DNA of 39,723 bases, from positions 1-39,723 of the forward strand of contig JAHHHH010000073.1 in NCBI GenBank assembly GCA_019359415.1, read 5' to 3'. The DNA comes from Iphinoe sp. HA4291-MV1 (GTDB lineage: Bacteria > Cyanobacteriota > Cyanobacteriia > Cyanobacteriales > Nostocaceae). Within the stretch, counting starts at the first letter, position 1; each line of letters begins with the position of its first letter. The notes under the pieces were generated by a model that had not been told where the DNA came from, made no database searches, and was given only the letters and a program-made list of their open reading frames with translations. Both the position numbers and the translations under genes were made by a program. Below, piece by piece: positions 7,127 through 15,000 of this stretch.

Positions 7127-7426
7127 ATGGTAAACCAAATTGCAGACATTGTAGATACTCTCAGTTACCCAGAGTTAGCCGGACTTCTCACGGCTTGTGG
7201 ATACGCTATTCGACAGCAAATGATACTTTCTAGAGCTTTGCTTGAACTCAGTTTCAAAATTTCCGAACTATGTGATGAAAACGGCTTTTTCAATACCGAA
7301 TATCAGGATGTAAAGAACGATATAGACCTATCACTTTTAGCCGGCTTATGCGCTGTTAAGTTGGCTCAGATGGCTACAGCAATTGAGGAAATCAATCGAA
7401 AATTGAATGAAATTTTGGAAGAGTAA
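7127..7426 (+). CDS. Hypothetical all-helical protein
   Basis: 99 residues, ATG start, acidic and predicted helical throughout (LSYPELAGLLTACGYAIRQQ; a C-terminal LAQMATAIEEINRKLNEILE that could form a coiled coil). No family is recognised. The only ribosome-site candidate is weak (GGA about 11 bp upstream). It sits between repeat-rich DNA and the tandem RNA hairpins, whose predicted minus-strand transcripts would converge on its 3' end. Helical content and an isolated position fit a small regulatory or mobile-element cargo protein, but nothing in the sequence proves a function. Confidence 0.5.
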   Translation: MVNQIADIVDTLSYPELAGLLTACGYAIRQQMILSRALLELSFKISELCDENGFFNTEYQDVKNDIDLSLLAGLCAVKLAQMATAIEEINRKLNEILEE

Positions 7427-7490
7427 TAAGGATGGAAATTTGCATCGAATGTTTTTATAACCGAAACAAATTGAATCCAGTATAAACAAC

Positions 7491-7561
7491 AAAAAGCGCT
7501 TAGGAGTGTTACCGTGTTTCCACCCTAAGCACTTCTTGTTTTACACTTACTCCTCACACAC
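7491..7561 (-). ncRNA. Yfr1/Yfr2-group small RNA candidate, copy A
   Basis: Read on the minus strand, a start near 7561 follows a TATTCT box (7573-7568) with TTGCTC 17 bp before it. The transcript would carry GTGTGAGGAGTAAG (7559-7546), then a hairpin CUUAGG-GUG-loop-CAC-U-CCUAAG and CGC-TTTTT ending at 7491, about 70 nt in all. The loop is GAAACACGGUAA and the bulge is one nucleotide. The complement of the 5' motif is ACTCCTCACAC, which I recall as the conserved element of Yfr1; Yfr2's conserved motif is nearly complementary to it. The strand is not certain: a plus-strand transcript from a TATAAA box at 7481-7486 would be Yfr1-like. I prefer minus because both copies then end in a terminator. 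Confidence 0.5.
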
Positions 7562-7644
7562 AATTAGAGAATAACATTGACCTCATTAAAGAGCAAGTAA
7601 GCTAAGTGACGGTTTGACAACTGAACCTTGTCTATTTACAAAGC

Positions 7645-7714
7645 AAAAAGCGCTTGGACGTCTTGCCGTGTTTCGACTCCAAGCGTTTTTTGTCTTCAAC
7701 TTACTCCTCACACC
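7645..7714 (-). ncRNA. Yfr1/Yfr2-group small RNA candidate, copy B
   Basis: Second copy, exactly 154 bp from copy A. On the minus strand a TATTGT box (7726-7721) precedes the same GTGTGAGGAGTAAG motif (7713-7700). The hairpin is CUUGGA-GUC-loop-GAC-G-UCCAAG followed by CGC-TTTTT ending at 7645. The loop is GAAACACGGCAA. Against copy A the inner stem changes from GUG/CAC to GUC/GAC and the outer pair also covaries, so the structure is maintained. In the other orientation TTGACA (7614-7619), 17 bp, TACAAA (7637-7642) would start a plus-strand RNA with the exact ACTCCTCACAC motif at 7703-7713. Orientation needs transcript data. Confidence 0.5.
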
Positions 7715-7864
7715 ATCTAAACAATATCACGGGTTGAATCAGATGACGAATTAAATGAGTGACACTTTAACAACTGCTCTACTGTCTTAAGACATAGAGC
7801 ATTAGTTTTTTTCTATGTCTTCTGATTTATACTTTGCTTTACATCCCTCTTAGGAGGGAGATTT

Positions 7865-9415
7865 TTAATGTAAAAAGTGACGGATACCAGTCAATACCAT
7901 GACTAAACCCAGTTCATTAGCAGCTTGAATGGAATCTTGATCCCGCAAACTTCCTCCTGGTTGGACGATAGCCTTAATTCCAGCTGCGGCTGCTGTTCTT
8001 ACTGAATCATCAAAAGGAAAGAATCCATCACTAGCGAGAATTGCATCTTTGGCTTTTTCTCCAGCTTGTTCTAAAGCAATTTTAACAGAGCCAACACGGT
8101 TCATTTGACCTGCACCTACACCCAAAGTTGTGCGCTCGCCACTCACAACAATGGCATTAGACTTAACGTGCTTGCAAACTTTCCAAGCAAACAATAATTC
8201 TTCTAACTCATCATCAGTAGGTTTCTTTTCGCTGACGATTTGCCATGTACTGGTATTAGCTACCGCATCATCTGAAGCTTGCACGAGAAAACTACCTGCA
8301 ATGACTTTTACAGTTTCTTTTGCTCCACGACTCAAGTCTGGTAAAGTTAATACTCGCACTTTTGATTTAGCAGCCAAAATTTCCTGTGCTTGCGCCTCAC
8401 AATCTGGTGCAACCACACATTCTAAAAAAGTCTTTGTTAACTCAGTCGCAGTTCCAGCGTCAATTGGACGATTCAGCGCAACAATTCCACCAAAAGCAGA
8501 AACAGAGTCAGTGTTGAATGCTTTTTGGTAAGCTTCTTGGATAGTATTTCCCAAAGCAACACCACAGGGATTGTTGTGTTTGATAATCGCTCCTGCTGGT
8601 GTATCGGTGAATTCAGAAATGATACGCCTTGCTGCTTCTAAATCAACCAAGTTATTGTAACTGAGTTCTTTGCCTTGAAGTTTAGTAGCAGCTGCCCATC
8701 CCGTTGGAGTTGCACCAGTTTGATACCAAGCTGCAGTTTGATGAGGATTTTCACCGTAACGGAGAGATTGTAGTTGTTTGCCTCGAAGGGTGTACTGTTG
8801 AGGTAATTCTCCTTCTTTGTTGGAGGAGAGGTTATTACTTAAGTATGCTGCTATGGCTTGGTCATAGCTAGAGGTATGCAAAAATCCTTTTAAGGCAGAC
8901 TTTTGCCGAAACTCCAGGGATGGTTCGCCATTTGAGCGACGCATTTCCCGTAAATATTCTTCATACTGCGCCGGTTCGCATAAAATTGTGAGATGAGCGA
9001 AGTTTTTTGAGGCAGCTCTGAGCATAGCAGGACCACCAATGTCAATTTGCTCGATCGCCTCAGGTAAAGTTATCTCTTCTTTGGCGATCGTTTCTTCAAA
9101 AGGATAAAGATTCACCACCACCAAATCAATCGGGCGAATTTGGTTATTTTCCAAATCCGCTATATCTTCGGGTACATCTCGCCGTGCTAAGATACCACCA
9201 TGTATCCGGGGATGCAGCGTTTTGACTCGACCACCTAAAATTTCTGGTGAACCTGTGTAATCAGCAACTTTCATCACTGGTAGTCCTGCATCTTTCAGTG
9301 CTTTGGCTGTTCCTCCACTGCTGATTAATTCAAAGTCAAATTCTTCTACTAAGCTGCGGGCAAGATCGATTAATCCTGTTTTATTAGATACACTCAGCAG
9401 TGCTAGACGCGCCAT
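7865..9415 (-). CDS. purH: Bifunctional AICAR transformylase / IMP cyclohydrolase
   Basis: 516 residues from the ATG at 9415, the normal PurH size. That ATG has AGGA five bases upstream and begins the conserved MARLALLSVSNKTGL; the open frame extends 77 codons further up through repeat DNA, which is not part of the protein. The N-terminal IMP cyclohydrolase (MGS-like) domain includes ELISSGGTAKAL and VKTLHPRIHGGILARRD. The transformylase domain follows, with SLRYGENPHQTAAWY, the catalytic-site motif IIKHNNPCGVA and C-terminal QPGGSLRDQDSI. It catalyses the last two steps of de novo purine synthesis in the cytosol. No operon partner is visible on either side. Its upstream region faces the broken Uma2 gene. 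Confidence 0.97.
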   Translation of the reverse strand: MARLALLSVSNKTGLIDLARSLVEEFDFELISSGGTAKALKDAGLPVMKVADYTGSPEILGGRVKTLHPRIHGGILARRDVPEDIADLENNQIRPIDLVVVNLYPFEETIAKEEITLPEAIEQIDIGGPAMLRAASKNFAHLTILCEPAQYEEYLREMRRSNGEPSLEFRQKSALKGFLHTSSYDQAIAAYLSNNLSSNKEGELPQQYTLRGKQLQSLRYGENPHQTAAWYQTGATPTGWAAATKLQGKELSYNNLVDLEAARRIISEFTDTPAGAIIKHNNPCGVALGNTIQEAYQKAFNTDSVSAFGGIVALNRPIDAGTATELTKTFLECVVAPDCEAQAQEILAAKSKVRVLTLPDLSRGAKETVKVIAGSFLVQASDDAVANTSTWQIVSEKKPTDDELEELLFAWKVCKHVKSNAIVVSGERTTLGVGAGQMNRVGSVKIALEQAGEKAKDAILASDGFFPFDDSVRTAAAAGIKAIVQPGGSLRDQDSIQAANELGLVMVLTGIRHFLH

Positions 9416-9572
9416 ATTTCCTGAGTTTCCTTTAGTGTATTTACAATTAGTGCAGATAAATATTGTATAAACCGCAAAGGCACGTAGACGCAAAGTGGTG
9501 CTTGGCGCAAAGACGAAGCATCGTCTGGAATACAATAGCTGTATTGAGTCATTGATGAAGAGCGCGATCGCT

Positions 9573-9973
9573 ATGACCGCAGCAACCAAAAAACTGACTT
9601 TTGCAGAGCAGAGTACCTCAAGTATAACGATGGCACGGATACCCAATATGAATTGGTTGATGGAGAATTAATCCCCATGAGTCTTGGTACTGGTAAGCAT
9701 GGCGGAATCTCCAAGTTTTTAGAACGAACCTTCGATGACGAAAGTGCCAAAATGGGAAGGAATTGGACAGCACAAAAGTTTTCCGTCGGTATTCGTTCGC
9801 CACGCGGGGGACGCTGGGACACTTCGCGGGTTCCAGACGTGGTAGTTTTACCAATAGAGCAGTGGGAAGCAGCTATGGAAACGAAACCCATTACCGTTCG
9901 TGTCAACGTGGAAGCCGCCCGTATCTTTGAAAAGGCACTTCCCAGCAAAGCTATAATTTCTTCAAGGACATAG
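9573..9973 (+). pseudogene. Uma2 family gene, frameshifted and fused to an unrelated 3' end
   Basis: From ATG 9573 the start reads MTAATKKLTFAE, a typical Uma2 (DUF820) N-terminus. A 5-bp tandem duplication (GCAGA at 9603-9607 and 9608-9612) throws it out of frame. Removing it restores AEYLKYNDGTDTQYELVDGE, followed by the family motifs KMGRNWTAQKFSVGIRSPRG and WDTSRVPDVVVLPIEQW. After about residue 105 the Uma2 core ends abruptly. The sequence becomes METKPITVRVNVEAARIFEK, which resembles the start of a different small cyanobacterial protein and itself stops after about 11 unrelated residues. The C-terminal half of the nuclease-like fold, with its catalytic residues, is missing. Non-functional. 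Confidence 0.75.
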
Positions 9974-13931: not shown

Positions 13932-15000
13932 ACCCAAGTTGCGAGTTATTGAATTGTGAGTGAAAAATACCTGTCTACTCATGCGATCGCTCATGACCAG
14001 TTGACGGTTGGGCGTAGCCCAACCGTTACTTAAACCCAACTCAAAGTATAAGTGTTAAATCAGCTTAGAGTATTAAAATAAACTCATCCAAGAAAGGCTT
14101 GTTGAAGAGTAAATGCAAAAATAAATGCTTGTAGTTTCAGTAGAAACCCTTCATATGTGACTGCATGAATCGATTTGGGGAAAACACGAGTGATACTACT
14201 AAACACAGTTTCAATATAATGTCGGGTATGTTGTTTAATGTATTGATTCCACGGTGGGTCTTGACGCTTGGAATTCTTTTTACGCATGACTTTCAACTCG
14301 ATTTTACTCGTCTCTAACAGGTTCTCTTCCACAGTATAATCAGTGTACGCAGAATCAGCATACACTTCACTCCCAGGCGGCAAATTTAATGGTAAACCAT
14401 TCAACGCACGTACATCAGAAGCACTACCAGGCATGAATACAAACTCAACTGGAATACCATTTTTAGTCGTTAATAACTGAACTCGAACCCCATAGAAATA
14501 GCGTTTCTTTGATGCTATGTAACCTCTGTAATCCTCTGATTTGACTAATTTCACATTGAAGATACGGATATTATCGCAGATTGGTACAGGAAATGAGTCT
14601 AAAAGATATTCCGTACAATCATTAATTTCTTTTAGTATCATTCCTATTTGATGAAATAAATCGTTCACCAACATCGAGATACCGTGCAATCGACGATTAA
14701 ATCGAGATTTTTCTAACATACCTGGTATCAAGTTATGGTCTTTCATATAGCCACAAGCCTTATGATGATTACCATTAAAGAACATTGCAGCGCACACAGC
14801 CGTTGTAATAATTTCTGCATCACTCATATCTCTCCGGCTATCTTCATCATGCCCGATCGCCTTCAACAGGTCGTCAATGATAGCATAGACGGTAATTATT
14901 TCACTTAGCATACATCCCTCCTAATTTTCGTGCCTGGAGGGAATTTTATTGTTTAAGTGACCATCAGCGATCGCCCACAAGAATAACTAGCAACTTGGGT
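13932..15000 (-). mobile_element. IS982-family insertion sequence, apparently complete
   Basis: 1,069 bp with terminal inverted repeats ACCCAAGTTGCGAGTTATT (left) and ACCCAAGTTGCTAGTTATT (complement of the right end), one mismatch in 19. A 5-bp direct repeat TAATA flanks it (13927-13931 and 15001-15005), a target duplication that marks a recent insertion. It lies 2 bp plus the duplication away from the end of the IS701-like relic. Confidence 0.9.
14084..14911 (-). CDS. IS982-family transposase
   Basis: 275 residues, near full length for the family. The N-terminal helical region (DMSDAEIITTAVCAAMFFNG) leads to the DDE catalytic core: first Asp in EYLLDSFPVPICDN, second in VYADSAYTDYTVEENL, and Glu in YIETVFSSITRVFP. 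It cuts and rejoins the IS ends by a DDE mechanism. The frame is intact, the ends match and there is a target duplication, so the element may still be active. A weak ribosome site (GGAGG) precedes the ATG. Confidence 0.92.
   Translation of the reverse strand: MLSEIITVYAIIDDLLKAIGHDEDSRRDMSDAEIITTAVCAAMFFNGNHHKACGYMKDHNLIPGMLEKSRFNRRLHGISMLVNDLFHQIGMILKEINDCTEYLLDSFPVPICDNIRIFNVKLVKSEDYRGYIASKKRYFYGVRVQLLTTKNGIPVEFVFMPGSASDVRALNGLPLNLPPGSEVYADSAYTDYTVEENLLETSKIELKVMRKKNSKRQDPPWNQYIKQHTRHYIETVFSSITRVFPKSIHAVTYEGFLLKLQAFIFAFTLQQAFLG

Follow-up and report, generated by a model that had tools for sequence, protein, structure and literature searches.

A purH-linked tandem of yfr2 small RNA genes in Iphinoe sp. 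and an upstream inverted repeat in common with a second, predicted structured RNA

RESULTS

The yfr2 pair and its structure

The window comprises 39,723 nucleotides of Iphinoe sp. HA4291-MV1 (contig JAHHHH010000073.1, positions 1 to 39,723). On its minus strand, downstream of purH, lie two units of the Yfr2 (Cyano-1) RNA. In the order in which they are read the features are:

7865..9646, minus: purH (AICARFT/IMPCHase; PF01808, PF02142), the next gene upstream of the Yfr2 pair
7759..7776, minus: inverted repeat CAGTTGTTAAAGTGTCAC, candidate operator of the upstream copy (14/14 informative positions)
7721..7726, minus: predicted -10-like box TATTGT after TG, upstream copy; similar boxes at the same place in relatives
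7642..7717, minus: Yfr2 (Cyano-1) RNA, upstream copy (RF01701, 44.8 bits, and fold); 5′ GUGUGAGGAGU at 7713-7703, hairpin ending in a U-run
7663..7674, minus: 12-nt loop GAAACACGGCAA of the upstream copy
7606..7623, minus: inverted repeat CAGTTGTCAAACCGTCAC, candidate operator of the downstream copy (13/14), with a plus-strand TTGACA inside
7568..7573, minus: predicted -10-like box TATTCT after TG, downstream copy; similar boxes at the same place in relatives
7490..7563, minus: Yfr2 (Cyano-1) RNA, downstream copy (RF01701, 51.0 bits, and fold); 5′ GUGUGAGGAGU at 7559-7549
7509..7520, minus: 12-nt loop GAAACACGGTAA of the downstream copy
4641-4624 and 28621 (plus): further repeat-like sites, each scoring 12/14

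Both units exceed the RF01701 gathering score of 41 in the Rfam search (E 4e-6 and 1.1e-4), while a third copy of the host genome, on contig C11, falls below it with 38.3 bits. Voss and others have described Yfr2 as having an unpaired 5′ end and a stem, broken at position -4, that carries a 12-nt loop (passages of PMC2662882), and the family has been tied to the Cyano-1 motif (an excerpt of PMC8400943). The window copies share all of this, together with the occurrence of several copies per genome. Their free folds (-21.1 and -25.0 kcal/mol) each contain the 12-nt central loop and a single unpaired base three pairs below it, which breaks the stem at -4. In the predicted folds and pairings the conserved 5′ motif is unpaired in both copies and complementary to Yfr1, with an exact complement of 13 and 11 nt.

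An earlier, sequence-only reading had described two units 154 bp apart, with a conserved loop, a bulge and compensatory changes in the stem, and had suggested Yfr2-like minus-strand transcripts of about 70 nt. These observations were sound. The window contains the motif ACTCCTCACAC at two places and no more, 7549 and 7703 on the plus strand; the loops GAAACACGGCAA and GAAACACGGTAA start at 7674 and 7520 on the minus strand; bulge and stem changes are present in the folds of both copies; and the Cyano-1 model matches 7717-7642 and 7563-7490. As to the -10 boxes and terminators suggested for both copies, the letters TGATATTGT and TGTTATTCT are found on the minus strand (hexamers 7726-7721 and 7573-7568), and the hairpin is followed by a U-run. 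A strict scan of 7430-7860 for a sigma-70 promoter and a terminator returned neither on either strand; loops in its terminator rule are limited to 3-8, so that the 12-nt loop escapes it.

The hairpin is general. It was surveyed in 102 fetched copies (99 from relatives and three from the host genome), anchoring on the loop, keeping the best match and assuming the stem break, and is present in all of them, with 14/14 pairs in 77 and 9 to 13 pairs in 25. At least two standard pair types occur at each of the 14 stem positions. Of these hairpins 74 are distinct. In them pair 1 is read as G-C 52 times and as C-G 22 times, pair 2 as U-A 62 times and as A-U 12 times, while pair 11 takes the forms C-G, G-C, U-A and A-U. 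These pair changes and the two gathering-level matches argue that the units are more than a chance likeness.

The plus strand and the location of Yfr1

A Yfr1 gene on the plus strand, forming an overlapping sense/antisense pair with Yfr2, had also been proposed. The Yfr1 model (RF01116) has no match between 7000 and 8000 at E up to 5, and the single Yfr1 match found in the host genome lies on another contig (C57:984-1047, 60.5 bits), flanked by trxA-like and guaB-like ORFs (thioredoxin and IMP dehydrogenase, as read from the translations). This interval is named as the usual place of Yfr1 in part of PMC6778093. The window locus carries the 11-nt motif of Yfr1 on its plus strand, as the reverse complement of that of Yfr2, but has purH as neighbour in place of guaB and trxA. 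On the missing match and the location on C57, a plus-strand Yfr1 was rejected.

More broadly, the plus strand might encode Yfr1-like or Yfr10-like RNAs (ACUCCUCACAC) that overlap Yfr2 in antisense. The 11-mer stands twice on that strand with a TTGACA-like box nearby, and RNAs that have only this motif in common are reported from other strains, two of them from Nostoc sp. PCC 7120 (in the section of PMC6778093 concerned). We regard this as extremely improbable, because reverse-complementing the motif of Yfr2 itself gives exactly the 11-mer, the Yfr1 model finds nothing, and the Cyano-1 match and the U-run both suit the minus strand. The letters of the suggested plus-strand promoter TTGACA-17-TACAAA are present, but they fall opposite the conserved repeat of the minus strand, and the TTGACA is kept in 3/8 genomes of the genus. 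The strict scan gave no promoter on this strand, nor on the other.

Yfr1 adjoins a guaB-like gene (C57:1-2547), and its partner Yfr2 adjoins purH (7865-9646), which is possibly a coincidence. The genes guaB and purH respectively use and make IMP.

Tandem arrangement and linkage to purH

Rfam model searches matched yfr2 in 60/60 genomes; copy and linkage counts are based on the 59 that have listed yfr2 rows, the sample including 36 genomes of the host family. Two or more copies within 1 kb occur in 27/36 family genomes and 30/59 overall, among the matches listed, where no opposite-strand pairs within 1 kb were seen. The pair is present in 8/8 genomes of the host genus. A strict tandem pattern was found in 126/218 family genomes and 32/56 genera, and its reversed form in none. 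The pattern missed 92/218 family genomes, and overlooks for example four copies at 171-bp spacing in G027. Two adjacent genes, earlier thought unusual, are therefore a widespread arrangement of a known small RNA. The earlier interpretation, taken as a whole, was half right. The G027 array (C41:260615-261203), with an exact 171-bp period and identical bodies, has either been amplified recently or been homogenised.

Across the genus, upstream copies are on average 94% and downstream copies 90% identical, compared with 74% for the two copies within one genome. Since same-position copies are more alike than the two copies of one genome, the duplication is older than the genus. The copies of 14 two-copy arrays from other genera are 73 to 97% identical.

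The window pair lies 147 bp downstream of purH. A same-strand copy is found 75-365 bp downstream of purH in 30/35 other family genomes, so that the linkage extends to 31/36 among the matches listed. The exceptions are G016, G019 and G030, with purH elsewhere, G028, with purH about 6 kb away, and G014, where a search for purH found none. Outside the family the linkage was seen in 1/23 genomes with listed copies (G046, 68 bp). Anchoring of a tandem to purH differs from what has been written of yfr2, whose loci are called unconserved in a passage of PMC6778093; in the host family one yfr2 locus is conserved. A literature search found no paper naming both yfr2 and purH; Gierga 2009 and Lambrecht 2018 lay outside that search.

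So regular a position behind purH, on the same strand, is what would be expected if the hairpins were terminators of purH or an element of its 3′-UTR. We consider this very unlikely, because every copy has retained a -10-like box, and most copies a repeat of their own, at a fixed distance, the loop and the 5′ motif are conserved beyond the needs of a terminator, and the linkage is rare outside the family. Transcription starts have been mapped for Yfr2a, b and c of Synechocystis, although two of these starts are common with a downstream gene (passages of PMC2662882). A pure purH 3′-UTR element was rejected on the boxes and repeats, the conservation and the rarity of the linkage outside the family.

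A 99-aa ORF (7127-7426, plus) without a Pfam match faces the Yfr2 pair. It is 79-84% identical in 6/7 fetched loci of the genus; the seventh locus (L039) is cut short. A transposase with a DDE domain lies at 14084-14911 (minus).

An inverted repeat upstream of yfr2

An inverted repeat, CASTT-N4-AASTGTCAC, is located ~63 bp upstream of each window copy. Its distribution follows the class of the copy. Copies whose body reads GAGGAGCGAAC are denoted solitary type, and include the third copy of the host genome; those with other bodies are array type. At least 7/10 letters of AAAGTGTCAC, which is half of the inverted repeat, were found in 68/83 array-type copies, most often 56 bp before GTGTGAGGAG, under a class rule that differs by one letter from that of the later scoring. 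The repeat was then scored over 14 positions at a fixed distance, with a threshold of at least 11. It is present in 61/84 array-type and 0/17 solitary-type copies of the first fetched set (the third host copy left out), and in 25/50 and 0/10 respectively of a wider set of 60 copies, chosen among the matches listed, that overlaps the first in one copy (G030). Shuffles reached the threshold in 0/2020 and 5/6000 cases respectively. The repeat is found at none of the 27 GAGGAGCGAAC-bodied copies scored.

Searching for the exact repeat gave 80 sites, spread over 25 genomes, and its reversed pattern gave 5; three palindromes are counted twice, because the repeat is nearly its own complement. Of these sites 38 are at yfr2, 21 at a second stretch that we denote R1, and 21 at neither. 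Six of the last are the three full palindromes, read on both strands, in one homologous ~271-aa gene (G011, G017, G031), and two lie about 0.6 kb before a cytochrome f-like ORF (G009, G017). Comparison of nearby ORFs gave no shared neighbour for the other 13. As sites recur in the ~271-aa gene and before the cytochrome f-like ORF, yfr2 and R1 are not the sole places at which the repeat is found repeatedly.

An NtcA box, as opposed to a site for a GntR-type protein (PlmA; see 'Discussion' section), is an unlikely reading of the conserved upstream element. Several copies do show GTC-N8-TAC across the right half of the repeat, and Yfr2 of Nostoc responds to nitrogen, being upregulated under nitrogen deprivation (according to part of PMC6974561). 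The conserved part, however, is CASTT-N4-AASTGTCAC, and the aligned R1 promoters keep it without the TAC half.

A predicted structured RNA behind the same repeat

The host genome contains one R1 locus:

C96:30932-30767 (= L125:1768-1933), minus: R1, predicted structured RNA of ~165 nt, between genes

R1 begins TGCAAGGAGTGATACCA and ends about 165 nt later in a hairpin with a U-run. The distance from repeat to R1 is the same as that from repeat to yfr2, at 21 of the 42 exact sites that are not at yfr2. The consensus fold has 38 pairs, six of which have changes on both sides, a modest covariation. Searches of 12 loci against Rfam 15 at E up to 5 gave seven matches, all below the gathering score. 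No conserved reading frame was found in 20 loci. A small protein gene was rejected, since frames that open at a common position (28) vary in length between 5 and >46 codons and 3/20 loci have no ATG there.

A model of R1 matched 33/36 family genomes (48.5 to 180.9 bits), with no find in G003 (89% complete), G030 and G032. Outside the family it gave one match of 38.6 bits, without the repeat, and in a class sample of 68 genomes (host included) two others match at 44.7 and 34.6 bits. Eleven matches are weak (33-41 bits); four of these (G049, G013, G002 and G000:C137) score 7 to 10/14 for the repeat and are taken as chance.

The alignment had come from repeat-bearing sites, and the association was therefore tested independently by the letters of the RNA alone. 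A scan with the 5′ letters of R1 gave at least 116 stretches in named genomes (Nostoc, Anabaena, Fischerella, Calothrix, Scytonema, Brasilonema and others), of which four at record edges were dropped. Among the matches listed the exact repeat stands at -65 to -62 in 104 of the 112 loci tested, compared with 0/2240 shuffles, and AASTGTCAC lies within 110 bp upstream in all 112; the genomes are related, so that these are not independent events. Eleven of 12 further loci found by the model score at least 13/14 for the repeat, and one (G022) scores 10.

NsrR1 of Nostoc sp. PCC 7120 resembles R1 as a small RNA of heterocystous cyanobacteria and their close relatives with an intrinsic terminator. 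It differs in being ~110 nt long, with an NtcA motif over its -10 box (in the portion of PMC6166021 that describes it), whereas R1 measures ~165 nt and has its repeat at -63. Identity with NsrR1 was rejected on the reported size and promoter. None of the papers searched has the first 16 letters of R1, and R1 may be in the supplementary table of 327 predicted sRNAs of Nostoc that belongs to PMC4734099.

Predicted pairing with Yfr1

Yfr2 of Nostoc, where there are four yfr2 repeats, binds Yfr1 in gel shifts (as given in part of PMC6974561), and Yfr2 interferes with the action of Yfr1 in a reporter test in work on Prochlorococcus (in an extract of PMC6778093). By analogy with these strains, the window RNAs may do likewise. 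With the folds of the RNAs themselves allowed for, the calculated gain on pairing with Yfr1 is 24.8 and 22.1 kcal/mol for the window copies and 21.2 for the third copy, reached by 0/100 tail shuffles in each case. A cruder whole-duplex energy that ignores those folds (-38.4 and -35.8 kcal/mol for the window copies) fails to single out the Yfr2-Yfr1 pairs well, since the means for whole-RNA shuffles are -30.7 (sd 4.7) and -29.7 (sd 4.9), with individual shuffles below the real pairs.

The unpaired 5′ end of R1 includes 8 nt, AGGAGUGA, that are complementary to Yfr1. The gain is 12.4 kcal/mol, reached by 0/30 and 0/150 shuffles. Pairing of R1 with Yfr1, weaker than that of Yfr2, is a prediction from the pair of one genome.

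DISCUSSION

The tandem itself is a widespread arrangement of a known small RNA. It extends the Yfr2 family and corrects the sense in which the plus-strand motif is read. The lead to be followed is the unexpected repeat that yfr2 and R1 have in common, together with the candidate new RNA.

With high confidence we read the locus as tandem yfr2 genes behind purH, separate units with their own repeat, promoter and terminator, making ~72-nt RNAs that sequester Yfr1, the tandem being an old duplication that provides dosage. Each copy would be transcribed from the promoter below its upstream repeat and end at the hairpin terminator. The free 5′ tail GUGUGAGGAGU would pair with the invariant unpaired motif of Yfr1, holding bound Yfr1 off its mRNA targets, and other targets may be reached through the loop motif of Yfr2. 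The tandem would give two slightly different stems as well as dosage. An effect of dosage is plausible; this effect and transcription of the pair in this strain are inferred.

The candidate site is sharply defined. It precedes yfr2 across much of the class and, within the family, recurs in the promoters of two small RNAs, which opens the question of its regulator to direct tests. R1 for its part would be a conserved small RNA, with matches in 33/36 family genomes. In Prochlorococcus the GntR protein PMM1637 binds to CGRE1-containing yfr2 promoters (same extract of PMC6778093), and reviews credit control of yfr2 to PlmA, a partner of PII-PipX whose regulon they call undefined (passages of PMC6243067 and PMC7344720). 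CGRE1 resembles the repeat as an element of yfr2 promoters, and five copies from marine-type genomes show the half-site of the repeat, TGTGACAGTT; the two may be the same element.

The host genome has five GntR matches. One of the proteins, of 330 aa, has Pfam matches only in an N-terminal helix-turn-helix (GntR, and HTH_36 just over the cut-off) and no NCBIfam match over the cut-off, and is found once each in 59/60 genomes. We infer that it is PlmA. It is missing from G051 alone, and the yfr2 copies of that genome are, among the matches listed, all of the GAGGAGCGAAC type, which agrees, as a single case, with action at the repeat. A simple regulator story has three facts against it: G003, G030 and G032 have the 330-aa protein and gave no R1, 23/84 array-type copies are without the repeat, and three genomes have it again within a replication-like gene. 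On the reading adopted here one regulator, with PlmA as the leading candidate, would act at the candidate repeat of yfr2 and control R1 as well.

A wider proposal is tentative, and we hold it to be rather doubtful. In heterocyst-forming cyanobacteria PlmA, tied to nitrogen status via PII-PipX, might use one operator, in one register, to drive both the purH-linked yfr2 array and the unrelated R1, the two forming the core of its regulon. The exposed 5′ tails of Yfr2 and R1 would be complementary to overlapping parts of the Yfr1 core, and R1 could for this reason be a second, independently evolved sponge of Yfr1.

The three full palindromes are located at L340:4345-4366 (G017), L341:4067-4088 (G011) and L344:5236-5257 (G031), beside short direct repeats. 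The ~271-aa gene that bears them has weak PHROGs matches to replication initiation and helicase loader proteins, and nearby lie an integrase (L344) and a DNA methylase (L341). PlmA is named for plasmid maintenance. The palindromes in this replication-like gene may be linked to PlmA, or may be due to chance.
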